Origin: Mesorhizobium sp. M2A.F.Ca.ET.046.03.2.1
GTDB lineage: Bacteria > Pseudomonadota > Alphaproteobacteria > Rhizobiales > Rhizobiaceae
NCBI RefSeq assembly: GCF_003952425.1
Contig: NZ_CP034449.1
Location: 5,940,001 to 6,004,000 of the forward strand
Reading direction: 5' to 3'
Length of the DNA: 64,000 nucleotides
Made by a program: the position numbers and the translations under genes. The notes below the pieces were generated by a model. That model was not told where the DNA came from. It made no database searches and saw only the letters and a program-made list of their open reading frames with translations. Below, piece by piece: positions 28,792 through 38,931 of this stretch (positions are counted from its first letter, which is position 1; the number at the start of each line of letters is the position of its first letter).

Positions 28792-29217
28792 ATGAGCCTG
28801 CCAGTCCTGGTCGTCCTCGTCGCGTTCGGCATTGCGTTGTCGGTCGCAGCCGTGCATTTCACCGGCGGCACGACAACCGCGACGCTTGCCGGCGCGGCTC
28901 AAGCGCTCGCACGCTTTGCCGATGATTTTCCCGACGAAAGGCCGGGTGCCGTGCGGCTGACCGCCGACAATCATGCCGCGTTTCTCGACCTCGGCCCGCA
29001 ACGCTGCGGCATCGTCCAGAGCATCGGCGATTGTTTTCTGACGCGCATCGTCACGCCGCACGACATTCTGGCGCTGGCGAGGGAAGGGAAAGCGGTGTCG
29101 CTGCGGCTGAAGGATTTCACCTGGAAAGGTGGGCGGTTTGCTTTTGCCAACGAAGCCGATGCGCGAGCGGTGGCAGCGACCCTGCAGAACAGCGATCGGA
29201 TCCGGGAGGCGGCGTGA
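28792..29217 (+). CDS. Membrane-anchored protein of unknown function
   Basis: A 141-aa protein that I do not recognise. Residues about 3–22 (PVLVVLVAFGIALSVAAVHF) form a membrane anchor or signal segment. The rest is a compact mixed alpha/beta sequence with two cysteines (QRCGIVQSIGDCF) that could form a disulphide outside the cytoplasm. GGAGGA lies ahead of the ATG at 28792. The stop overlaps the start of the hydroxylase gene (TGATG), so the two are translationally coupled. Confidence 0.7.
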   Translation: MSLPVLVVLVAFGIALSVAAVHFTGGTTTATLAGAAQALARFADDFPDERPGAVRLTADNHAAFLDLGPQRCGIVQSIGDCFLTRIVTPHDILALAREGKAVSLRLKDFTWKGGRFAFANEADARAVAATLQNSDRIREAA

Positions 29218-30167
29218 TGGACGAGTATAATTTCCCGCAGGTCACCCAGCTTGCGATCCCCTTCTTCGTCGCAGCGATCCTGATCGAGCTCTGGCTGGTG
29301 CGCACCGGCCGCGCCAAGGGATCGTTCGAGACGCGCGACACGCTGACCAGCCTGATGATGGGCACCGGCAATGTCGTCGCCGGCCTGCTGCTCGGCGTCG
29401 TGTCCTACTGGGCGCTGCTGTGGCTCTGGCAGTTCCGTTTCTTCAATCTCGGCCTGTCCATCTGGGTGTTCGTCGCCGCCTTCCTGCTCGATGACTTGCG
29501 CTACTATGTCTATCACCGCATCGCGCACCGGGTGCGCTGGGTGTGGGCCGAGCATGTCAATCATCATTCCAGCCAGCATTACAATCTCTCGACGGCCCTG
29601 AGGCAGAGCTGGACCGGCCTGTTCACCTTCACCTTCATCCTGCAGGCGCCGCTGGTGCTCGCCGGCTTCCATCCGGCGGTGATCGCCTTCGTCTTCGGCT
29701 TCAACCTTGTCTGGCAGTTCTGGATCCACACCGAGACGATCGGCAAGATGTGGGGCTGGTTCGAGTTCATCTTCAACACGCCCTCGCACCATCGCGTCCA
29801 CCACGCCACCAACCCGCGCTATCTCGACGCCAATTATGCCGGCACGCTGATCATCTGGGACCGCATGTTCGGCACCTTCGTCGAGGAACTGGAGGAAGAC
29901 CGGCCGCGCTACGGCATCGTCAAGAATATCGGGACCTTCAATCCGCTGAAGGTCGCGTTCCACGAATGGATCGGCATGTTCAAGGATGCGCTGGCGCCGG
30001 GGCTGACGCCTGGCGAGCGCTTCAATTATCTCATCCAACCGCCGGGCTGGAGCCATGACGGCTCGCGCGACACGTCGGAAACGCTGAAGGCGGCCTATGT
30101 CAGGCGAAATCCTTCCCAAGCAGGCAAGCCGGGATTGCCGCCAGCGCGTGCCGAGCCGGCGGAATAG
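29217..30167 (+). CDS. Sterol desaturase / fatty acid hydroxylase superfamily protein
   Basis: A 316-aa integral membrane di-iron oxygenase. The histidine boxes are complete: HRIAH, then HVNHHSSQH, HTET and HRVHHATNP, set among four or more hydrophobic segments. The family hydroxylates or desaturates lipids; the exact lipid is not predictable. The ATG at 29217 overlaps the preceding stop by one base. An in-frame open stretch back to 29031 lies inside the previous gene. The end of this gene marks the left edge of the accessory island. Confidence 0.9.
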   Translation: MDEYNFPQVTQLAIPFFVAAILIELWLVRTGRAKGSFETRDTLTSLMMGTGNVVAGLLLGVVSYWALLWLWQFRFFNLGLSIWVFVAAFLLDDLRYYVYHRIAHRVRWVWAEHVNHHSSQHYNLSTALRQSWTGLFTFTFILQAPLVLAGFHPAVIAFVFGFNLVWQFWIHTETIGKMWGWFEFIFNTPSHHRVHHATNPRYLDANYAGTLIIWDRMFGTFVEELEEDRPRYGIVKNIGTFNPLKVAFHEWIGMFKDALAPGLTPGERFNYLIQPPGWSHDGSRDTSETLKAAYVRRNPSQAGKPGLPPARAEPAE

Positions 30168-30330
30168 TCATGGTGAGGAGAGAGCGCGGCCGCTTGCAGC
30201 AGCTGCCATCGCGGCGGTGTCCGCAAAATTCCTGTCGATGATACGCAGCTTCGGCGACAGCGGCAGAACGAACGGTAACTGGAACCGTCATGGTGCCGAA
30301 ACGAAGCGTCGCGGCGGTCTTTATGTGTAA
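30097..30330 (+). other. Short + strand open frame between the hydroxylase and sulfotransferase genes
   Basis: A 77-codon frame that starts inside the hydroxylase gene and runs through the intergenic gap. Its second half has an Ala-rich hydrophobic stretch followed by FGDSGRTNGNWNRHG and RRGGLYV. It ends 10 bases inside the 3' end of the convergent sulfotransferase gene. No good Shine–Dalgarno sequence is obvious. It may be chance, or a small peptide gene next to the modification cluster. Confidence 0.2.
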
Positions 30331-31121
30331 TCCCTGAACCTGATCCTCGAGCGGATTTCCTTTTTCAGAAGAAACCTGAGAAGGTTTCCAATGGTTCTTG
30401 GGTATGTATGGCCATAGGCGTATAGTTTTTCGAGGGAACGAGATTTGTTTTCGGCCTCGAATTTCCTTCGCCATTCCATCGATAGCGCGTCGCGCTGAAC
30501 TTCGCAGAGGTCGTTCGAGATCTGCTCTGCGTCGATCGAGACATCCATCTTGCCGGCGACGTCCATCACATATTCGCGCCATCCCTTCATGATCTGCTCG
30601 TAAAAGACCGGAACGTATTGGATGGACCTCAGCGCGAGGTAATTTCTCCAGAACGCCATGCCTTCGCCGATATAGATCATGTTCTCGAGAATCTGTGCGC
30701 GATCGTATGCGACCGAACTCTCAGCACTATTCTCGTCGCCGCCGCCACTTGTCCTGGACCATTGCCCTGACTGAGATGCGCGTGTTGCGGATATCGCGGC
30801 ACCGAGACGGTCCATTCTCTCGAGCAATATTACGAGAATCTCATGGTCGCGAAGGCATCTCTCTATGAAGTCGTATTTTCGCTTGTCGTAAACATCACGC
30901 AGATGATGCGGAAATATCTTGACCGAGAAGACGCCATTATCTGTCGAGGATCTATCGATTATTTTCTGATAGTGCTGTTCGGCTGCGAGTGTCTGGGGTG
31001 CTTCACTCGTCTCATCCCTCAGCCATTCGCGGGCGTTACCCAATTTCCCGGTGCTGTTCGTCAGCGAGGCCACCCAAGTCGAGCCGCTCCGCGCCTCCGA
31101 CAAGATTAGCAGACCTTTCAT
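30321..31121 (-). CDS. Sulfotransferase (Stf0-like)
   Basis: A 266-aa protein with the PAPS-binding 5' phosphosulfate loop SEARSGSTWVASL at residues 8–20, and a central LLERMDRLGAAISATRASQSGQW block like that of Stf0-type bacterial sulfotransferases. It would transfer sulfate to a hydroxyl of a glycan, lipid or peptide. The gene is visibly AT-richer than the flanking chromosome. It is the last gene of the six-gene minus-strand operon, and its ATG overlaps the stop of the nucleotidyltransferase by four bases. The acceptor is unknown. Confidence 0.82.
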   Translation of the reverse strand: MKGLLILSEARSGSTWVASLTNSTGKLGNAREWLRDETSEAPQTLAAEQHYQKIIDRSSTDNGVFSVKIFPHHLRDVYDKRKYDFIERCLRDHEILVILLERMDRLGAAISATRASQSGQWSRTSGGGDENSAESSVAYDRAQILENMIYIGEGMAFWRNYLALRSIQYVPVFYEQIMKGWREYVMDVAGKMDVSIDAEQISNDLCEVQRDALSMEWRRKFEAENKSRSLEKLYAYGHTYPRTIGNLLRFLLKKEIRSRIRFRDYT

Positions 31122-32626
31122 TGCGTTTCCTTCGCGGGACCTTCGCGTGAACTGCCGTCGATGAGCGCTCCCGGGTGTGCGAAGGGGCGGAATTCCGAAC
31201 TGGTAAGCGAGAACCGGGGGGCGGCGTAGCGCGCGGCGTTCTCCTCGGTCAGCATTCGCGAAGATCGCAGCGGCCGGCTTTCAATCCAGACCCTTGTCGC
31301 GCCAGCGGGAGTGTCAAGCTGGATTTCGCATAAGATTTCCAATGCGGTGCCCGCGCGCGGAAGCTTCGGGCGCACATGAAAGGCGGCAACATGCCCGGCG
31401 TCGCTGTTGATCTCGAAGGCGAGACGCCGCCACTTCACCGACGCCGGCAATCGGATGTGCAAGCGCAAGACGCCGGCGCGGTCGGAAGCGGGGAGAGGCA
31501 GATCGGCGCGCAGCTCGCCTTGGCCAGCAGGCAAGCCCCTGCTGAATTTCGTCTTCAGGCGCGGTCTCGTTTTCTGCTCGCCGCGTGGTTCGGACTGGGC
31601 CAGCTCAAGCGATTTGCGACGCGTCTTTGCAAGCCAACGAAGGGCGGCGCCGGCGGGAGTCTCACTTTGCCTGGGCCTTGCTTGAACGAAAGCCATCCAC
31701 GCGGCCATCGGCCCGGGAAGAGCCGCCTCGAAGCGTTCCATCGCCTCTGCATCGACCGCATAGCCTGCCCGCACTTTTAGCCAGCCAAGCGCGATCAATG
31801 TCGCCACCGCAATGTCGCGGGCGAGAATCTCATTGGAAAACAGCTTCCAATCGAAACCGGGTTCAACGATGAGGCGGGACAGATCGACCAGCCAGTCGCT
31901 GTTGGCGTGGGCGTCGAGACTGCCATTTGCGATGGCGATCACCGCCAGGTCTTCCCGGACCGGCAGTCCGCAGGCCACGGAATTGAACTCCACCGATCTG
32001 GCCCGCGCCCAGACCCGGTCGTCGTCGGCGAGGCTGCCCTGGCCCGGACGAAAGATGCAGCCATGAAGATCGATGTCGCCGTAGCGGTCCTTGTGAAGAT
32101 TGACGCTGCGCAGCCGTGCTGCCTGCGTCAGCATGCGCATGGCGCTGGAACCGCTCGACGGCTCCCAGCCCAGTTCAACGAACACGCCCAGGGCATCGCC
32201 CAGCCGGTTCCGCGGGACCACGATATCGAGGTCGTGGAACGAGCGTCCACCCCGTCCAACGGGATCAGCGGCACGCGCGGCTCCCTTGATGAGCATCATC
32301 GGCACGTCCGCCACAGCCAGCGCCGCGAATGCCGGTTGGCATTCTCTCATCAGAAGCATGGTTCGCGTCCATAGCATCCGTTGAAGCCCGGCAAGCCTCG
32401 GCGCATCCGGCAGATCCCTCAAACCAGGCCCAAGCCTGTTCCAGGCGGCGAGAATCAGCCGCTGCTCGCTGAACGTGCAGTCGTTCAGGTCGTGCGTGCC
32501 GATCCAGGCGCGCAGTTCCCTTTCGGCCGCCACCGGATCGACGTGCACGGCGGCCAGCAGGAGGCGCTCGTGATCGCCAGCGGGCCAGGCGCGATCAAGA
32601 GACGGGTACCAGAGAGGCCAATTCAT
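31118..32626 (-). CDS. Nucleotidyltransferase-family protein with extra C-terminal domain
   Basis: A 502-aa protein whose first 350 residues resemble the uncharacterised nucleotidyltransferase family (NTP_transf_5-like) often found with HprK-like kinases and PqqD-like proteins. The active-site region is VPMMLIKGAARA followed by FHDLDIVVP, with the paired aspartates at residues 132 and 134, and IDLHG further on. Residues about 370–502 form an additional beta-rich region that I do not recognise. Both ends overlap neighbours by four bases, showing tight coupling. It may transfer a nucleotide to a sugar, peptide or lipid intermediate of this pathway. Confidence 0.75.
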   Translation of the reverse strand: MNWPLWYPSLDRAWPAGDHERLLLAAVHVDPVAAERELRAWIGTHDLNDCTFSEQRLILAAWNRLGPGLRDLPDAPRLAGLQRMLWTRTMLLMRECQPAFAALAVADVPMMLIKGAARAADPVGRGGRSFHDLDIVVPRNRLGDALGVFVELGWEPSSGSSAMRMLTQAARLRSVNLHKDRYGDIDLHGCIFRPGQGSLADDDRVWARARSVEFNSVACGLPVREDLAVIAIANGSLDAHANSDWLVDLSRLIVEPGFDWKLFSNEILARDIAVATLIALGWLKVRAGYAVDAEAMERFEAALPGPMAAWMAFVQARPRQSETPAGAALRWLAKTRRKSLELAQSEPRGEQKTRPRLKTKFSRGLPAGQGELRADLPLPASDRAGVLRLHIRLPASVKWRRLAFEINSDAGHVAAFHVRPKLPRAGTALEILCEIQLDTPAGATRVWIESRPLRSSRMLTEENAARYAAPRFSLTSSEFRPFAHPGALIDGSSREGPAKETQ

Positions 32627-33357
32627 TGCCCCCCTCTTTCTCCATCATCATCACCCCTCTTGGCCCTGAGCGCCCGGCGTGCGATTTCAAGAAAGTCGGA
32701 TGCCATGCCGGCCGGTGCGCTGCCGGCGACGGCTACCCTTCTGGACAACGTGCCTGGTCGAATACGACGTCGATGAACCGTCTCGTCCAGCATGGTCATT
32801 TTCATGCCCGCGGCGATGGCCCTGCGGTACCAATCTATAAAGTACCCCGTGCGCAAGCTTTCGTCGAACGGGATGCCGAGCCGTTCGACAGCACTTCGCC
32901 GAACGGCAAGCGAACTCAGGAGGTAGCCCGGGTAGCGGCCTTTCTTATAGTGGAGAGAGACAAAGGCTTCGGAGGGGTAGTCCGGGCTCTCGAAGGTTTC
33001 GCTGTGGCCGAACACTGCATCCAGTGAGGGATCGGAGTCGAGCCTGGCCCGCTGCAGCGCGAGCTTGTCGGGCATCCAGAGGTCGTCGGCATCGAGGAAC
33101 GCAAGAACCGCGCCCTGGGCGGCCTTTATGCCGACATTGAATGCGGACGGCGCTCCCCCGTTGACCTTCCTGACTATGCGCGGATGCAAAGCGTGGCCCT
33201 GAGCGACCTCGACCGTGCGGTCGCTCGAACCGTCATCGACGACGATGACTTCCCGCGGCGAATGGTCATTCTGCTCCGCGATGCTGTCGAGCGTCTCATG
33301 AAGCGTGGCGGACGCGTTCCACGCTGGAATGATGACGCTGAAAAACGGCGTTTCCAC
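32623..33357 (-). CDS. Family 2 glycosyltransferase (first of two)
   Basis: A 244-aa GT-A fold enzyme. The nucleotide-sugar site is VIIPAWNAS ... REVIVVDDGSSDRT, and the DxD-type metal site is LAFLDADDLWMPDK. The acceptor half contains SLHYKKGRYPGYLLSS and FIDWYRRAIAAG. The start is GTG, directly after the TGA of the upstream glycosyltransferase gene. No membrane segment is evident, so it should act in the cytoplasm. Confidence 0.86.
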   Translation of the reverse strand: METPFFSVIIPAWNASATLHETLDSIAEQNDHSPREVIVVDDGSSDRTVEVAQGHALHPRIVRKVNGGAPSAFNVGIKAAQGAVLAFLDADDLWMPDKLALQRARLDSDPSLDAVFGHSETFESPDYPSEAFVSLHYKKGRYPGYLLSSLAVRRSAVERLGIPFDESLRTGYFIDWYRRAIAAGMKMTMLDETVHRRRIRPGTLSRRVAVAGSAPAGMASDFLEIARRALRAKRGDDDGERGGQ

Positions 33358-34098
33358 TCACTCCTCCATCAGATGCTTGAACGGAGGCAACGGCCTTGCG
33401 TTGCCGCTCTTGCGCCGACGCATGAGCGACTGCATCAGGGCGCGGTTGAAGTCGCGCTTCTCCTCTGCCGTGTAGGTGCTTGTCATCGACTCTGCATGCC
33501 GACGGTAGCACAGGGTCACCGCGTTGAGGATCGTCATCGGAATTTCGGCTTCGCGGATCCGGAGCATGAGGTCGACATCTTCGGAATAAAGGAAGTTCTC
33601 GTCGAACATCCCGACCCGGTCGAAAACTGTCCGGCGATAGAGGGTCGCACCCAAATGAACATGGAAAAGTTCATCTGTTATCGCCGCCGGATCGGGTGCG
33701 GGGGCATCCGTCATTTGCCGGTTGAAATAGCTGACGAAGCCGGAAACGACATCCATATGAGGCGTTCGGGCAAAGCGTGCGAGATGCAGCGAGAGCTTGT
33801 CGGCCGGCCAGAGGTCATCGCAATCCAGGAAGCCGATGAACTCGCCGCCGGCGATCCTCAGGCCGACATTTCGCGCGGGTCCCGGGCCGCGCCGCGGCCC
33901 GTCGAGGACGCGGATCGCCGGGAAACGCGAAGCCAGGGTCTCGACGATCTCGCGCGAGCGGTCGGTCGAGCCGTCGTCGACAACCAGGATTTCCTGCACC
34001 GGCCACGCTTGGTCGAGTATGGTTTTCAGGGCGTCGGCGATGTATTTCTCGCCGTTTCGCACCGGCATGATGACGCTGATCGTTGGGCTGTCGCTCAT
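33358..34098 (-). CDS. Family 2 glycosyltransferase (second of two)
   Basis: A 246-aa GT-A fold enzyme related to its neighbour. It has ISVIMPVRNGEKYI, ILVVDDGSTDRSREIVE and the metal site IGFLDCDDLWPADK, then GATLYRRTVFDRVGMFDE and FLYSEDVDLMLRIREA, typical of GT2 acceptor regions. The ATG at 34098 overlaps the stop of the kinase gene as ATGA; an in-frame extension to 34176 lies inside that gene. Two similar transferases in a row suggest two successive or alternative sugar additions. Confidence 0.87.
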   Translation of the reverse strand: MSDSPTISVIMPVRNGEKYIADALKTILDQAWPVQEILVVDDGSTDRSREIVETLASRFPAIRVLDGPRRGPGPARNVGLRIAGGEFIGFLDCDDLWPADKLSLHLARFARTPHMDVVSGFVSYFNRQMTDAPAPDPAAITDELFHVHLGATLYRRTVFDRVGMFDENFLYSEDVDLMLRIREAEIPMTILNAVTLCYRRHAESMTSTYTAEEKRDFNRALMQSLMRRRKSGNARPLPPFKHLMEE

Positions 34099-35171
34099 GC
34101 TCTGAGTTCCCGCACGAACCCTCGCAGCACGGTTGCCGCCTCCATCGGATCGTTGCCGATCAGGAACTCGTGGCATGGAAGCGAGCGCGACAGGCTGGCG
34201 GCCTGCTGGAATATCTCGTTATGGCCGGTCCGCAAGATCTTCGACGTGCTTGGCGAGAGCGCACGGATCATATCGAACCGTGAAGCGGAACGGATTGTCG
34301 AAGCATCCTCGCCGGTGAGCTTGCAGGAGACAAGAGCTTTCACCGCGATTTGCGGGACCAGCGCATCCGGTATCGTCGTGCTGATCGGGACGAGCGCCTT
34401 TTCCCCCGGGCGACGGTCCCGGTTCACTGCTTGCGCGGCAAGCCCGCTGAAGAGGATCTCCGCCATCCCGGTGAGTTTCATGGTGTCGAAGAGCGAGTGG
34501 CTTCGCCAGTCTGCCCCAGACTGCGACACCAGCACAATATCATCGCCCGTGGTCTGCATCCCCGCGGAAATTGCGGCAGCCGTCAGCGTCGATTTGCCGG
34601 AACCTCCCGGACCGGCGAGCATCACGCCCACGCCATCTTCGCCGACAACGGCGGAATGAAGCATCGCGTGCCCCGTGGCCAACGCGCCCCAATGGATGTG
34701 GTGGCGCAGCGGAGACCCGTATTCCCAGACCGGCAGCCGGGCAGCGGCTCCCACCCAATAGACGCCGGTGCCGGCGGACAGGTCGTGCAGATGCCAGATT
34801 CCGCGGCTCTCGTCGGATACGATTGCGACGCCGGCCTCGCTGTCCCATACGGTCCGGGTGACGGCATCGGCCTCGTCGGCTTCAAAGGGCCATTCGGCGG
34901 GCGGAGCCGGAAAGCCGTCGTCCTCATGCGAGACGGCATAGACAGTGATCGAGCGGTCTTCCGCAGTGGCTCCCGTTGTTTGCGCATGACGCAGAACCGG
35001 CAGGATGACCGGATCGAGCGCGGTTCCGCATGTGCGCAGCCGCAGCGTCAACCCGCCAAGGCGAAAGCGATGCTCAGCGCCGGATTCGTACCACCGGAAA
35101 CTCGCGTCGGCAATGACGCGGCGGACGAATGCTGCAGGCGCCGTACGGGGATCGACGGCGGCTCGGACCAT
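34095..35171 (-). CDS. HprK-like serine kinase family protein
   Basis: A 358-aa protein with a P-loop MLAGPGGSGKSTLTAAAI at about residues 184–200 and GDDIVLV shortly after, the arrangement of HPr kinase C-terminal domains. The preceding HIHWGALATGHAMLHSA block is typical of HprK-related proteins that accompany PqqD-like proteins. In some lasso-peptide clusters, HprK relatives phosphorylate the peptide; here the target is unknown. I preferred the ATG at 35171, five bases after the pqqD-like stop; an alternative at 35210 would overlap that gene by 34 bases. Confidence 0.8.
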   Translation of the reverse strand: MVRAAVDPRTAPAAFVRRVIADASFRWYESGAEHRFRLGGLTLRLRTCGTALDPVILPVLRHAQTTGATAEDRSITVYAVSHEDDGFPAPPAEWPFEADEADAVTRTVWDSEAGVAIVSDESRGIWHLHDLSAGTGVYWVGAAARLPVWEYGSPLRHHIHWGALATGHAMLHSAVVGEDGVGVMLAGPGGSGKSTLTAAAISAGMQTTGDDIVLVSQSGADWRSHSLFDTMKLTGMAEILFSGLAAQAVNRDRRPGEKALVPISTTIPDALVPQIAVKALVSCKLTGEDASTIRSASRFDMIRALSPSTSKILRTGHNEIFQQAASLSRSLPCHEFLIGNDPMEAATVLRGFVRELRA

Positions 35172-35176
35172 TCGGA

Positions 35177-35611
35177 TCAGCTGTCCCCCAGCTCCCGCCG
35201 CAGCGGCCATCCACCGCCCGGATCCACGTCATGGATGGGGTCGAGGACAATCAGCTCCTGCAAGTCCGTGTGAATCTCCAGCTCCGGCCTCATGAAGGAT
35301 GCGCGGCTGGAAATGTCGGGCAGCTTGGGCAATTCGATCGGCGAGGCCGGCAGAAGTATGCCTTCCTCCGCGAGGAGGTCGAGGAAGCCTCGCACCGAGG
35401 CAATGTCATCGTCGTCCAAGTCGGGATAACCCGTCCTCAACGCCGTCTCGATCATGGTGGGATCGACAGGCTTACGCAACATCTCCCAGATGAGCTGCGC
35501 GCTCCCCTTCATGCCGTAATACTTGCCGGTCGCAAAGTTCACCGCGACGACTTCACCGTCGAAGATCTCGCTCGACAAATTTGTTTCGTCTAAGACGACG
35601 CCCAACATCAT
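35177..35611 (-). CDS. PqqD-like peptide chaperone with C-terminal tail
   Basis: A 144-aa protein and first gene of the minus-strand operon. Residues about 15–88 match the PqqD/RRE fold that binds leader peptides for radical SAM or other RiPP enzymes: FDGEVVAVNFATGKYYGM, GSAQLIWEMLRKPVD and ASVRGFLDLLAEEGIL. Residues 90–144 are an extension absent from ordinary PqqD. It ends with HTDLQELIVLDPIHDVD and GGGWP, which looks like a separate short peptide rather than fold. Two adjacent ATGs (35611, 35608) can serve as start. It is divergent from the radical SAM gene. Confidence 0.8.
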   Translation of the reverse strand: MMLGVVLDETNLSSEIFDGEVVAVNFATGKYYGMKGSAQLIWEMLRKPVDPTMIETALRTGYPDLDDDDIASVRGFLDLLAEEGILLPASPIELPKLPDISSRASFMRPELEIHTDLQELIVLDPIHDVDPGGGWPLRRELGDS

Positions 35612-35673
35612 TCCGCCCTTTGCCCCTAAATGGCGGGGTGATACACCAAGGGGCCGCGTGGGGGAAGTGTTCC

Positions 35674-35820
35674 TTGGTCAAAGATTTGCAGCGCTTCATT
35701 CGAAGCAACCCAACTGAATTCGCAGATTGGCTGAGGAACGCCGTGGCGCAAAAGCGGAGTCTTCAATGGAATTCCACACCCGGCCGAGCGGCCGTCGCGC
35801 ATGGTCGTGAGCCGGCATGA
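35674..35820 (+). other. Candidate small ORF upstream of and overlapping the radical SAM gene
   Basis: A TTG at 35674 preceded by GGGGGAAG with six to seven bases of spacing opens a 48-codon frame. It encodes an amphipathic stretch DLQRFIRSNPTEFADWLRNA and ends in a TGA overlapping the radical SAM ATG. The overlap and leader-like helix fit a RiPP precursor or leader ORF, but composition alone cannot prove coding. A second option is a 14-codon frame from an ATG at 35766 (MEFHTRPSGRRAWS), which has GCGGAG with six bases of spacing. Confidence 0.3.
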
Positions 35821-37136
35821 GAGAGCTGAACCGTGAAAAGGACCGCCATTCCCCCGGGAGCGGTGACGGCTTCTGCGTCATGCCGTGGATTAATCTGCAT
35901 GTCGCGACCGATGGCGCGATCTCGCCTTGCTGCGAGTTCGACGGATCAATAGGCCACGTGCGGAAAGAAGGCCTGAAGGGAGCCTGGAGCAGCGAGGCGC
36001 TGCAGCAGATACGACATCGGTTTGCACGGCAGGAACCGGTTGGGCAGTGCTGGAAATGTTTCGACCGTGACGAAAGAGAGGGGGACAGCCTGCGCCAGCA
36101 GATGAATCGCCAGTTCAGCGCATGGCACCGGCGGCTTGCGTCCGCGGATGAACCCTTCGCGGCCGCGCCGGCATCGCCGGCGGCGCTCGATGTCAGGTTC
36201 TCGAACCTGTGCAATTTCAAGTGCCGAAGCTGCTGGCACGGCGCCAGTTCGAAGTGGTTCACCGATGGCCGCGCCATCGGCGTCACCGCGGGTGACAAAG
36301 CCGAGATCAAGAGCTTCGCCTCGGCCACCGAGATGATGGACCAGATGTCGGGCTGGATCGACAATATCGAGTCGATCTACTTCGCTGGCGGCGAACCGCT
36401 TTTGACGGAAGAGCACTATCGGTTGCTGGATGCTCTGATCGAGGCAGGACGAACCCATGTCAGCCTGCGCTATAATACGAACATGTCCGTCACGGGCTTG
36501 GGCGGAAGATCGATATTCCAGCTGTGGAACGCATTTGAGAATGTCAGTGTCCAAGCAAGTGTCGACGACACTGGTGCCCGCGGTGCCCTTATTCGGCACG
36601 GTTTCGACTGGCCGCTATTCGTCGACAACATCATCCGGCTGCGACGGGAATGTCCGGGCGTGGACTTGGAGTTCGGCATAACCGTTTCCGCTTTGAACGT
36701 CAGCACTTTGGTCGAGCTTCTGGATGCCTTGCGGCACGAGTGCGAGGCCAGGGCATCCGAGATCCACATGCACTCTCTGCAAGAGCCGAAATTCATGCGC
36801 ACGCAGGTGCTTCCGCAGAGGCAAAAAAGCAAGATCGAGCAAAAGTTGCGTTCCTTCCTGGCGCAGTCGGAACCAGGCGCCGGTGCCGAACAAATGCAAC
36901 GCTACGTGAATGGCGTCATTGGCTATATGCGGTCAGAGGATCTGGCGTCCGAGCTGCCAAGGCTGGCAAAGCGCATGGACGCTCTTGACCGGCTGAGATC
37001 CGAATCGACGTCGAATGTCCTGACGGAAATTGGTCCGATTCTGGTATCGGCGCACGGTTTGTCCGGTACCGCGAGACGCTTCATCTCAGCAGCGCGCCGT
37101 GCCGCGGCCAGCTTCTGGCGACGAACGGCGCGTTGA
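35817..37136 (+). CDS. Twitch-domain radical SAM protein
   Basis: A 439-aa radical SAM enzyme with the cluster motif CNFKCRSC (C132, C136, C139) after LDVRFSNL, and the GGEPLL motif at YFAGGEPLLTEEH. The N-terminal 85 residues hold a separate Cys-rich part, FCVMPWINLHVATDGAISPCC ... GQCWKCF (C20, C38, C39, C78, C81). This resembles a twitch/SPASM auxiliary-cluster domain placed in front of the core. Such proteins act on peptides or on surface-associated substrates, mostly uncharacterised. The gene is AT-richer than its flanks and is divergent from the pqqD-like operon, with 205 bases between. Confidence 0.85.
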   Translation: MRELNREKDRHSPGSGDGFCVMPWINLHVATDGAISPCCEFDGSIGHVRKEGLKGAWSSEALQQIRHRFARQEPVGQCWKCFDRDEREGDSLRQQMNRQFSAWHRRLASADEPFAAAPASPAALDVRFSNLCNFKCRSCWHGASSKWFTDGRAIGVTAGDKAEIKSFASATEMMDQMSGWIDNIESIYFAGGEPLLTEEHYRLLDALIEAGRTHVSLRYNTNMSVTGLGGRSIFQLWNAFENVSVQASVDDTGARGALIRHGFDWPLFVDNIIRLRRECPGVDLEFGITVSALNVSTLVELLDALRHECEARASEIHMHSLQEPKFMRTQVLPQRQKSKIEQKLRSFLAQSEPGAGAEQMQRYVNGVIGYMRSEDLASELPRLAKRMDALDRLRSESTSNVLTEIGPILVSAHGLSGTARRFISAARRAAASFWRRTAR

Positions 37137-37145
37137 TCGGGGCGT

Positions 37146-38555
37146 TTATTCCGCAGCCTGCGCCTGTGACGGCAGTCCGAGCCACCCCCTGCAATCGGCC
37201 AGCGCTCTCGCCGTGATCGCATGACGTTTGGCGACGGTCTTGTCCTTGCCGCGCAGGCGCTTGCCGTCGGCCTTCGGCGCTTCGACCGGCGGGAAAAGGC
37301 CGAAATTGACGTTCATTGGCTGGAAGGAGCGTTTGCCGGGCTCATCATCCGACACGATATGCCCGCCGGTGATGTGGTTCAGCAGCGCGCCGAAGGCGGT
37401 GGTCGCCGGCGGCAGCGCGGGCGCGTGGCCGAGCCGCGAGGCGGCGGCGAAGCGGCCGGCGAGCAGGCCGATCGCGGCGCTTTCCACATAGCCTTCGCAG
37501 CCGGTGATCTGGCCGGCAAAGCGCAGACCCGGCCGCGATTTCAGCTGCAGCGAGGGATCGAGCAGCGTCGGCGAGTTGATGTAGGTGTTGCGGTGCAGGC
37601 CGCCGAGGCGCGCGAACTCAGCATTTTCGAGCCCAGGAATGGTGCGGAAGATGCGCACCTGCTCGGCATGCTTCAGCTTCGTCTGGAAACCGACCATGTT
37701 GTAGAGCGTGCCCAGCGCATTGTCCTGACGGAGCTGCATCACCGCATAGGCCTTGACCGAGGGATTGTGGGCGTTGGTCAGGCCCATCGGCTTCATCGGG
37801 CCGTAGCGCAGCGTCTCGACGCCGCGTTCGGCCATGACCTCGATCGGCAGGCAGCCGTCGAAATAGGGCGTGCCTTCCCACTCTTTGAACTCGGTTTTCT
37901 GGCCCTCCAGCAGCGCCTGGACGAAGGCGAAATACTGGTCCTTGTCCATCGGGCAGTTGATGTAGTCCTTGCCGGTGCCGCCGGGACCGACCTTGTCGTA
38001 GCGCGACTGGAACCAGGCGGTGTTCATGTCGATCGTGTCGAAATGCACGATCGGCGCGATGGCATCGAAGAAGGCCAGCGCGTCGGCGCCGGTCGCCTCG
38101 GCGATCGACTGTGCCAGCGACGGCGCCGTCAGTGGACCGGTGGCGATGATCGCCTGGTCCCAGTCCGCCGGCGGCAGCCCAGGCACTTCCTCACGTTGGA
38201 TGGTGATCAGCGGATGCGCTTCGATCTTCGCGGTGACCGCGTCGGAAAACCGGTCGCGGTCGACGGCCAGCGCGCCGCCGGCCGGCACCTGGTTGGCATC
38301 GCCGGCGCTCATGATCAGCGAGCCGGCCAGCCGCATTTCGGCATGCAGCAGGCCGACCGCGTTGTTTTCGGCGTCGTCGGAGCGGAAGGAGTTCGAGCAG
38401 ACGAGCTCGGCCAGGCCATCGGTCTTATGCGCGTCGGTGCCGCGCACCGGGCGCATCTCGTGCAGCACGACCGGAACGCCGGCCTCGGCGATTTGCCATG
38501 CCGCTTCGGAGCCGGCGAGGCCGCCGCCGACGACGTGTACGGGATTTTTGCTCAT
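37146..38555 (-). CDS. trmFO: Methylenetetrahydrofolate–tRNA-(uracil-5-)-methyltransferase TrmFO
   Basis: A 469-aa FAD enzyme that makes m5U54 in tRNA using methylenetetrahydrofolate. The FAD-binding [18 protein letters not shown] and the family blocks [23 protein letters not shown] and [18 protein letters not shown] are intact. The ATG at 38555 (MSKNPVHV) starts the flavin fold; codons back to 38591 add unrelated residues. It converges on the radical SAM gene, with 9 bases between the stops, and marks the right edge of the island. Confidence 0.95.
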
Positions 38556-38633
38556 GAGCGCCGGAATAATCGCTTGGCGGCCCGATTGCAATTGCCAGGC
38601 GGCGACGGCGAGAAACTGGCGCCTAAAACAACA

Positions 38634-38744
38634 ACACCCGCCGGGGGAGGAGGTCCGGCGGGTGTCGTTTTGGGGGTCGATCCTCGGGAGGAGGTGAAGA
38701 TCGACCTAATTCGTCATCGCCGGGGAGGAGGTCGGCTTTGACGA
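38634..38744 (-). ncRNA. Cuckoo/CcsR-like sRNA unit, distal copy
   Basis: Read on the minus strand, three hairpins follow each other, each showing ACCTCCTCCC in the loop: 38711–38744, 38675–38706 (stem GGTCGATC/GATCGACC) and 38634–38665 (11-bp stem ACACCCGCCGG). The last is followed by TGTTGTTTT and may terminate the transcript. GGAATTTCG precedes the unit, as in the neighbouring copy. Loops with CCUCCUCCC, an anti-Shine–Dalgarno sequence, define cuckoo RNAs and Rhodobacter CcsR sRNAs, which also lie downstream of a DUF1127 gene. Confidence 0.75.
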
Positions 38745-38811
38745 AATTCCTTTCGCCTTTTTCAGAAGGGGCGAAACCTTCGACGACGAACTACGTTCGC
38801 TTCTTGAACAA

Positions 38812-38920
38812 CGCCCGCCGGGGGAGGAGGTCCGGCGGGCGCCGTTTCGGTGGTCAACCCTCGGGAGGAGGTGAAGGTTGACCTCATTCGTCAGGGTCGG
38901 GGAGGAGGTCGACCCTGGCG
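38812..38920 (-). ncRNA. Cuckoo/CcsR-like sRNA unit, proximal copy
   Basis: Three minus-strand hairpins with ACCTCCTCCC loops: 38889–38920 (11-bp stem, one U·G pair), 38852–38883 (stem GGTCAACC/GGTTGACC) and 38812–38841 (stem CGCCCGCCGG). Stems differ from the distal copy by compensating changes (GATC/GATC against AACC/GGTT), while all loops are kept. This is good evidence for selected RNA structure. It begins about 12 bases after a DUF1127 stop codon and could be cut from the same transcript. Confidence 0.78.
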
Positions 38921-38931
38921 AAATTCCTTGC

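Follow-up and report, generated by a model that had tools for sequence, protein, structure and literature searches.

A patchily distributed PqqD-HprK-nucleotidyltransferase-GT2 module with a highly conserved PqqD tail and no visible precursor

PqqD-type recognition elements for ribosomally synthesized and post-translationally modified peptides (RiPPs; RiPP recognition elements, RREs) serve in the pyrroloquinoline quinone (PQQ) and mycofactocin pathways, the latter of which also uses family 2 glycosyltransferases (GT2), and in the HPr-rel-A and SynChlorMet cassettes (TIGR04352, TIGR04249) an HprK-related kinase lies beside a PqqD-like protein. Here we describe a gene module of comparable make-up, in which the PqqD-like RRE carries a highly conserved tail, in Mesorhizobium sp. 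M2A.F.Ca.ET.046.03.2.1; the stretch analysed (the window) comprises 64,000 nucleotides, positions 5,940,001-6,004,000 of a one-contig genome of 7.37 Mb. The nearest known system is that of the linear polyphosphorylated peptides (LPPs) of 2026, whose lppA-K-B-S-D-N clusters are found mostly in Bacillota according to passages of the report (PMC13381572). Like the module, LPP clusters have a discrete RRE, an HprK-like kinase and an NTP transferase, often lie among glycosyltransferase genes and require no lasso cyclase, and their MsbA-like exporter is matched by ABC exporters in several distant module loci. They differ in having, in the same passages, a precursor with a leader and a signal-peptidase-like protease (PMC13381572), neither of which was found for the module, whereas the module has the RRE tail and includes GT2 genes in its core. 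The kinase and nucleotidyltransferase sets of paeninodin and pseudomycoidin lasso peptide tailoring (PadeK/ThcoK, PsmK, PsmN) are also similar, with kinases that require an H-K-D-D set of residues, a phosphate-decorating nucleotidyltransferase homologue and an RRE of the B1 fold; as excerpted from the source, the lasso peptide receives its phosphate from PsmK, and the addition of hexoses to this phosphate requires PsmN (PMC9266682). Unlike these clusters, our locus has no precursor, B2 peptidase or macrolactam cyclase, and its RRE is tailed.

In contrast to PQQ and mycofactocin, the core of the module has a kinase and a nucleotidyltransferase in place of a radical SAM enzyme and a precursor, and it departs from the HPr-rel-A and SynChlorMet cassettes in that its kinase scores far below their cut-offs and the RREs of weaker HprK-like relatives are tailless. 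Fusions of RREs and glycosyltransferases are mentioned in portions of both RRE-Finder papers (PMC7470986, PMC12710340); in the open-access literature searched we found no description of an RRE with such a tail, and the strings DPIHEVD and DPIHDVD led to no paper. The interest of the system lies in this patchy RRE-kinase-nucleotidyltransferase-GT2 combination with a highly conserved RRE tail and no visible precursor. The logic of RRE, HprK-like kinase and nucleotidyltransferase known from lasso peptides and LPPs is seen here in many bacteria, the tail provides a sequence handle, D-P-[IV]-H-[DE]-V...G-W-P, for mining many more clusters, and with a tailed RRE one can test directly if such an element is able to present a substrate of its own.

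The PqqD-like protein (Table 1) scores 34.5 bits against PF05402 (cut-off 23.4). The top PDB matches of its AlphaFold2 (AF2) model, which has predicted local distance difference test (pLDDT) values of 93-97 over residues 11-90, are lasso B1 proteins solved with leader peptides, TbiB1 (5v1v, prob 1.00) and 6jx3. By its modelled fold the protein is therefore a predicted winged-helix RRE, in keeping with the initial annotation of this DNA, which had cast it as a peptide handler. The tail follows the RRE domain and has the consensus D-P-I-H-[DE]-V...G-W-P. In 52 diverse sequences D124, P125, I126, H127, V129, G134 and P136 are invariant, and W135 is present in 51 of them; mean column entropy is 1.29 bits over the tail (residues 110-137), 2.33 bits over the RRE (13-86) and 3.03 bits over the linker (87-109). 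There is no Ser, Thr or Tyr among the invariant tail residues: position 115 is T, D, S or A in 21, 19, 8 and 2 of the 52 sequences, and position 114 is Y, F or H in 26, 15 and 11. In the AF2 model, residues 101-120, comprising a short strand at 112-114 and the first third of the tail, have pLDDT values of 79-86, and the tail end (DPIH...GWP; residues 121-140), at about 52, is not confidently placed.

The tail goes with one particular kinase group, at least in Pseudomonadota. Our cross-phylum loci are the best 80 of 251, and of the two patterns used to retrieve them one was the tail motif DPIH[ED]V; the count of tails in these loci (81/81) is biased because the motif helped to select them. We therefore repeated the test on loci chosen by a kinase profile. 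These counts reach Pseudomonadota only, and the profile (A4) was built from kinases of such loci; outside Pseudomonadota the association rests on motif-selected loci. The test set was 52 strong kinase loci, 33 from the same genus and 19 from other genera (loci for 30 of the genus kinase matches entered from a search of 146 genomes). An RRE open reading frame (ORF) lay within the 3-4 kb around 46 of the 52 kinases, and 45 of these 46 had the tail; wider stretches of the other six loci revealed a tailed RRE in each, with T in place of V129 in L241. The tail is thus found in 51/52 kinase-chosen loci, where I126 is occasionally V, and the exception (L213/L245) keeps DPIH and not GWP. Around 24 weaker HprK-like kinases, an RRE ORF was found near 12, and the tail in none of them (0/12).

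The kinase of the window reaches 22.6 bits against Hpr_kinase_C (curated cut-off 33.3), 36.2 bits against HprK_rel_A (TIGR04352; cut-off 200), which places it outside that family, and 29.0 bits against TIGR04249 (cut-off 125). Although these curated cut-offs are not reached, H185, the G205-K206-S207 of the P-loop (GGSGKS), D223 and D224 are conserved and align with solved HprK structures (1jb1, 1ko7), and profile matches of the kinase to solved structures are to 1jb1, 2qmh and 1ko7. By its sequence, the protein has the HprK-type catalytic set (His before the P-loop, P-loop Lys, Asp-Asp). Profile searches also confirmed the Stf0, NTP_transf_5, PqqD and two Glycos_transf_2 assignments. In the NTP_transf_5 (NTP5) protein, G115, R128, D132, D226 and D248 are invariant in 30 sequences, and K114, D134, D186 and H188 are kept in 90% or more of them. 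A search against the sequences of solved structures gave no match for NTP5; its AF2 model (mean pLDDT 86.9) gave weak fold matches (E from 1.9e-03 upwards), including ANT(2'')-Ia, MenT3/4 and FKRP. FKRP is a phosphosugar transferase of the nucleotidyltransferase fold and acts in glycan-phosphate chemistry; the weak likeness of the model would fit a phosphosugar step for NTP5 and does not demonstrate one. In four loci (L067, L098, L120, L129) the kinase and GT2 are fused in one protein, which implies that both enzymes should act in one place.

Table 1. Genes of the locus and the conserved RRE tail, with positions in the window.
Feature	Position	Strand	Evidence
PqqD-like RRE protein, 144 aa	35177..35611	-	PF05402 2.6e-08; AF2 model like lasso B1 RREs
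RRE tail, residues 110-137 of the PqqD-like protein, ELEIHTDLQELIVLDPIHDVDPGGGWPL	35201..35284	-	low column entropy; kinase-chosen loci
HprK-like kinase, 371 aa	34095..35210	-	H185, K206, D223, D224; TIGR04352 3.5e-09, below cut-off
GT2 glycosyltransferase a	33358..34176	-	PF00535 7.3e-32
GT2 glycosyltransferase b	32623..33357	-	PF00535 1.1e-29
NTP_transf_5 nucleotidyltransferase-fold protein with C-terminal beta-rich region	31118..32626	-	PF14907 9.5e-18
Stf0-type sulfotransferase, accessory	30321..31121	-	PF09037 7.3e-13; GC 0.519
N-terminal-twitch radical SAM protein, strain-level neighbour	35817..37136	+	NF033640 5.1e-104

Sixty relatives, including 36 from the same genus, were first searched with the kinase and the radical SAM protein, and genes were mapped on 20 wider same-genus loci. 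PqqD, HprK, GT2 and NTP5 matches occur in 19 of these 20; the other, L055, has PqqD, HprK and GT2 without an NTP5 match and represents a third type. Type 1 occupies the site of the window, in the order secDF...fatty acid (FA) hydroxylase / NTP5-GT2-GT2-HprK-PqqD / trmFO, and is carried by the window genome, G007 (two copies, in a bin with 6% contamination), G026, G032, G036, G349, G370 and G390. Type 2, ordered PqqD-HprK-GT2(-GT2)-GT2-NTP5, was found at another site in 14 genomes, with 27-42% identity to the window proteins. Of the 146 genus genomes, 65 have the kinase group (E up to 1e-40) and 3 the radical SAM gene, the G366 copy being a C-terminal remnant in a frame of 117 residues. In G026, G032, G036, G349 and G370, PqqD adjoins trmFO, and there is neither a radical SAM nor a sulfotransferase gene at the locus; the sulfotransferase is of full length in one more type 1 copy (G007:C530), truncated in G390 and G366, and missing from the other mapped type 1 copies. 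On this distribution over the mapped loci and the 146 genomes, we take the five genes from PqqD to NTP5 to be the unit and the radical SAM and sulfotransferase genes to be optional. These two are probably strain-level passengers, with the radical SAM gene outside the module; sulfation may be a repeated add-on, as sulfotransferase-type genes recur in some distant clusters (e.g. L129).

The initial annotation had centred on the radical SAM enzyme, which was supposed to act on a PqqD-bound peptide in a pathway with up to five kinds of decoration. Its gene is adjacent and divergent, its product belongs clearly to NF033640 (348.5 bits, cut-off 170), with a SPASM-type domain preceding the radical SAM domain, and every intact copy found, three in all, adjoins the module. 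On its distribution we nevertheless reject it as a pathway member, since it is confined to 3 of the 146 genomes against 65 for the kinase and five intact type 1 loci lack it; the proposal is largely refuted, and we give it hardly any credence. The operon is genuine and was rightly spotted, with all seven ORFs present and open, and its key player was wrongly chosen. A single pathway is supported. The scattering of genes in related genomes, which the initial annotation had named as its refutation, gave a split outcome: the five core genes recur together, and the radical SAM and sulfotransferase genes do not go with them; the decorations come down to a core of kinase, nucleotidyltransferase and GT2, with sulfation optional.

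That the locus is a transferred cassette, as also suggested, is possible. At this site in seven relatives that lack type 1, no module separates trmFO from the FA hydroxylase gene opposite, which in G003 is replaced as its neighbour by the gene after the FA hydroxylase and in G021 is partial. In G366, however, the radical SAM and sulfotransferase remnants abut (L214, 10472-11077) with no match to the five core genes, which implies deletion of the core operon in a lineage that formerly had the arrangement of the window. Types 1 and 2 were never found together, and 62 of the 65 kinase genomes have one match; the remaining three are the contaminated bin with two type 1 copies, a genome with type 2 and the third type, and one with a split gene. 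A hypergeometric value of 0.018 for types 1 and 2 assumes 56 type 2 genomes and ignores kinship, and nothing is concluded from it. At G362:C1:3692730-3693787 the kinase gene is broken into two neighbouring open frames. One type 2 locus (L044, 6673-9078) comes after a malK-like ATPase and a Rieske oxygenase and reductase pair, which is found with 92-97% identity in nine other loci and is missing or divergent in four.

We tentatively propose that the genes form an RRE-guided phospho-glycosylation module, a reading that we consider plausible while stopping short of calling it probable. The acceptor, a peptide or protein whose gene would lie at another place in the genome, unlinked to the operon, would be held by the PqqD-like RRE and phosphorylated by the HprK-like kinase. 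A glycan would then be built on that phosphate by the two GT2 enzymes together with NTP5, in the role of a nucleotidyl- or phosphosugar-transferase, and in some strains the sulfotransferase would add sulfate; the tail, acting in trans, would serve for docking and bring the modifying enzymes together at the loaded RRE. This scheme, with the phosphate first and the building on it second, is modelled on PsmK/PsmN and LppK. The recurrence of the gene set, the kinase-GT2 fusions, the H-K-D-D set shared with lasso kinases and the likeness of the RRE model to lasso B1 proteins all speak for the proposal. The lack of an invariant hydroxyl residue in the tail favors docking over a role as substrate, and the poor placement of the DPIH...GWP part agrees with a segment that binds in trans and supports docking further. 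Gene content, frame overlaps, recurrence, the kinase residues, the predicted RRE fold and the conservation of the tail with its tie to this kinase group are observed, whereas the chemical steps and their order, docking by the tail and the existence of an unlinked acceptor are inferred.

A number of observations weigh against this proposal. To judge from the model, the RRE may have part of its tail packed against it. In L069, L082, L130 and L131 a tailed RRE occurs and a kinase match is absent, despite room on both sides. In L130 (9962-12057, Mesorhizobium sp. ES1-1), possibly a minimal version of the module, the tailed PqqD-like gene is accompanied by GT2 and GT8, with neither a kinase nor an NTP5 match, so that docking to the kinase is not enough to account for the tail. 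No exporter, flippase or polymerase is present in the Mesorhizobium operons, the missing exporter being the point that counts here. Deletion of the NTP transferase gene lppN from the LPP system caused no detectable change in the published excerpt (PMC13381572), which leaves the nucleotidyltransferase step weakly founded. No acceptor came to light: clustering of 439 small ORFs from 55 loci gave no convincing family, the 15 largest groups, judged by eye, consisting of low-complexity sequences, of shadow ORFs or of pairs shared by L074 and L099, two closely related loci; in GC-rich loci gene picking took shadow ORFs, and cover is incomplete there. A second copy of the tail motif was likewise not found, there being exactly one in each of 101/101 locus sequences.

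The lack of a visible precursor gene and the kinase-less L130 speak for the tail as the modified peptide itself. The RRE and precursor would then be one protein, with the kinase, nucleotidyltransferase and GT2 acting on its tail in cis or between copies, which we regard as unlikely; the result would be either a conserved product derived from the peptide or a carrier with permanent decoration, an outcome that we rate as equally improbable. The more specific idea of a RiPP-like system shared across phyla, in which the precursor gene is not separate and the RRE tail is a near-invariant substrate that is phosphorylated or glycosylated into a conserved peptide-derived carrier or cofactor, is marginally less likely again. 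Across many phyla no other part of the protein is as conserved as the tail, which is what the core of a cofactor-type peptide would show, and L130 would supply a tailed RRE with glycosyltransferases and no kinase. The operon has room for little else: its six minus-strand genes overlap or abut and leave no space for an extra gene, and in G026 there are gaps of about 190 bases between trmFO and PqqD and 100 bases after NTP5. Profile searches of ten proteins from the locus and its flanks detected no precursor, B2 peptidase or Asn-synthetase-like cyclase, as the initial annotation had stated for the lasso machinery, and the LPP leader YxxPxVLxHQxIxFETxxS and two looser forms had 0 matches when 111 sequences (1.92 Mb) were read in all six frames.

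A protein-database search for stand-alone tail peptides gave 115 hits among 146 candidates, 98 of them on contigs under 10 kb and many visibly cut-off PqqD C-termini. Four short tail proteins with no visible RRE part (P0124, P0158, P0187, P0205) lie on contigs of 88-201 kb; if real, with starts that are not miscalled, they would be separate tail peptides and would count for the tail as substrate. Four others (P0169, P0233, P0159, P0235) join the tail to odd prefixes on tiny contigs and look chimeric, the prefixes of the first three being signal-peptide-like or a membrane helix. None of 19 candidates for the tail in longer proteins was significant, in what is a weak test with search words from one sequence, and none of five pattern matches in viral contigs was confirmed. 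Against the tail as substrate stand the variable positions 115 and 114, which leave it no invariant hydroxyl, and the absence of a releasing peptidase, both among the locus proteins, the SpI-type signal peptidase of LPP clusters included, and among the 25 commonest neighbour families of distant loci. Most RiPP core peptides also vary far more than this tail. As the target of the lasso and LPP kinases, the excerpts of the two reports name Ser (PMC9266682; PMC13381572).

The module is widespread yet patchy, with similar gene sets ranging from Hyphomicrobiales to other phyla by record title, and its gene order and strand vary. Among 72 loci (L064-L135), 57 bear titles other than Mesorhizobium, including Rudanella and other Bacteroidetes, the cyanobacteria Halomicronema, Dolichospermum and Geminocystis, Nitrospirota, Bryobacterales and other Acidobacteria, Puniceicoccaceae, many Chloroflexi metagenome-assembled genomes (MAGs) and single Chlamydiae and Bacillota MAGs; the taxa are those of the record titles, and many are MAGs that are possibly misbinned. 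Within the stretches covered, the kinase profile matched in 64 of the 72 and NTP5 in 61; four of the eight kinase-less loci are near contig ends (L074, L083, L099, L109), the others being the four named above. One of the former, L109 (31-10453), has its tailed PqqD-like gene near genes of non-ribosomal peptide synthetase type (Condensation, AMP-binding) on a Nitrospiraceae contig, close to its end. In L240, L241, L243 and L244, the RRE and kinase are on opposite strands, some kilobases apart. The module is not universal: a phylum sample gave some HprK-like match in 39/249 genomes and a strong one (above 300 bits) in 5, and an order sample a kinase match in 19/297.

The neighbours of the module in 19 distant loci (69 ORFs) bear on whether the acceptor is a peptide at all. 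They are rich in GT2 (35), with nine ABC exporters (PF00664), five sulfotransferases, and GT1 and epimerase-type genes. The 69 ORFs are 67 of 87 plus two of the L129 sulfotransferase group, and the sulfotransferase count may be inflated by these two; counts use Pfam, as ORF groups lump different ABC ATPases. The lasso genes (precursor, B2, cyclase) are not among the 25 commonest of the 42 families, and rarer enzymes, including a radical SAM protein or a peptidase, may occur singly. Such surroundings would suit surface-glycan synthesis on an acceptor sugar or lipid-linked glycan, with the RRE protein as scaffold or regulator. In the cyanobacterial locus L102, an ABC-2 permease and an ABC ATPase, of the kind that serves polysaccharide export, sit between NTP5 and the kinase, and the FKRP likeness of the NTP5 model points the same way. 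The Mesorhizobium operons, by contrast, have the above-mentioned lack of flippase, polymerase and exporter, and PqqD-like RREs of known function bind peptides, in the excerpts consulted (PMC7470986); we consider this reading improbable, to about the same degree as the tail as substrate.

The proposal of an unlinked peptide or protein acceptor also has to be weighed against tailoring in trans of lasso or LPP precursors from other loci of the same genome. Two Transglut_core3 (B2-type) genes lie elsewhere in the genome, at 2394521-2394823 (L237) and 2418503-2418832 (L238), with another HprK-like gene no more than about 2.5 kb away in each case, and LPP and lasso clusters often occur in the same genomes according to parts of the LPP report (PMC13381572). 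However, each of these B2-type loci has its own HprK-like gene, L237 having an NTP_transf_5 gene (1.8e-25) as well, and the RREs beside weaker HprK-like kinases are those without tails. Tailoring in trans for such loci is therefore a distinctly remote prospect in our view; L237 and L238 are possibly further peptide-modification loci of this genome.

As the initial annotation had it, the locus sits between core genes, with an FA-hydroxylase-like gene (29031-30167) on one side and trmFO (37146-38591) on the other. Its six minus-strand genes do overlap or touch, by 34, 82, 0, 4 and 4 bases from PqqD to Stf0; the true start of GT2 a is probably the second Met, at 34098, which would reduce the 82-base overlap to an ATGA overlap. 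The claim that the segment is AT-richer than both flanks fails for total GC, which is 0.598-0.650 in the five core genes, 0.598 in the radical SAM gene and 0.617-0.674 in eight flanking genes, except for the sulfotransferase gene (0.519), and survives only as a tendency in third-position GC, at 0.72-0.80 in the core, 0.72 in the radical SAM gene and 0.63 in the sulfotransferase gene, with 0.79-0.86 in the flanks. Beyond trmFO, two copies of the small RNA ar14 (Rfam RF02344) lie on the minus strand at 38629-38749 and 38806-38926, scoring 89.5 and 93.1 bits.

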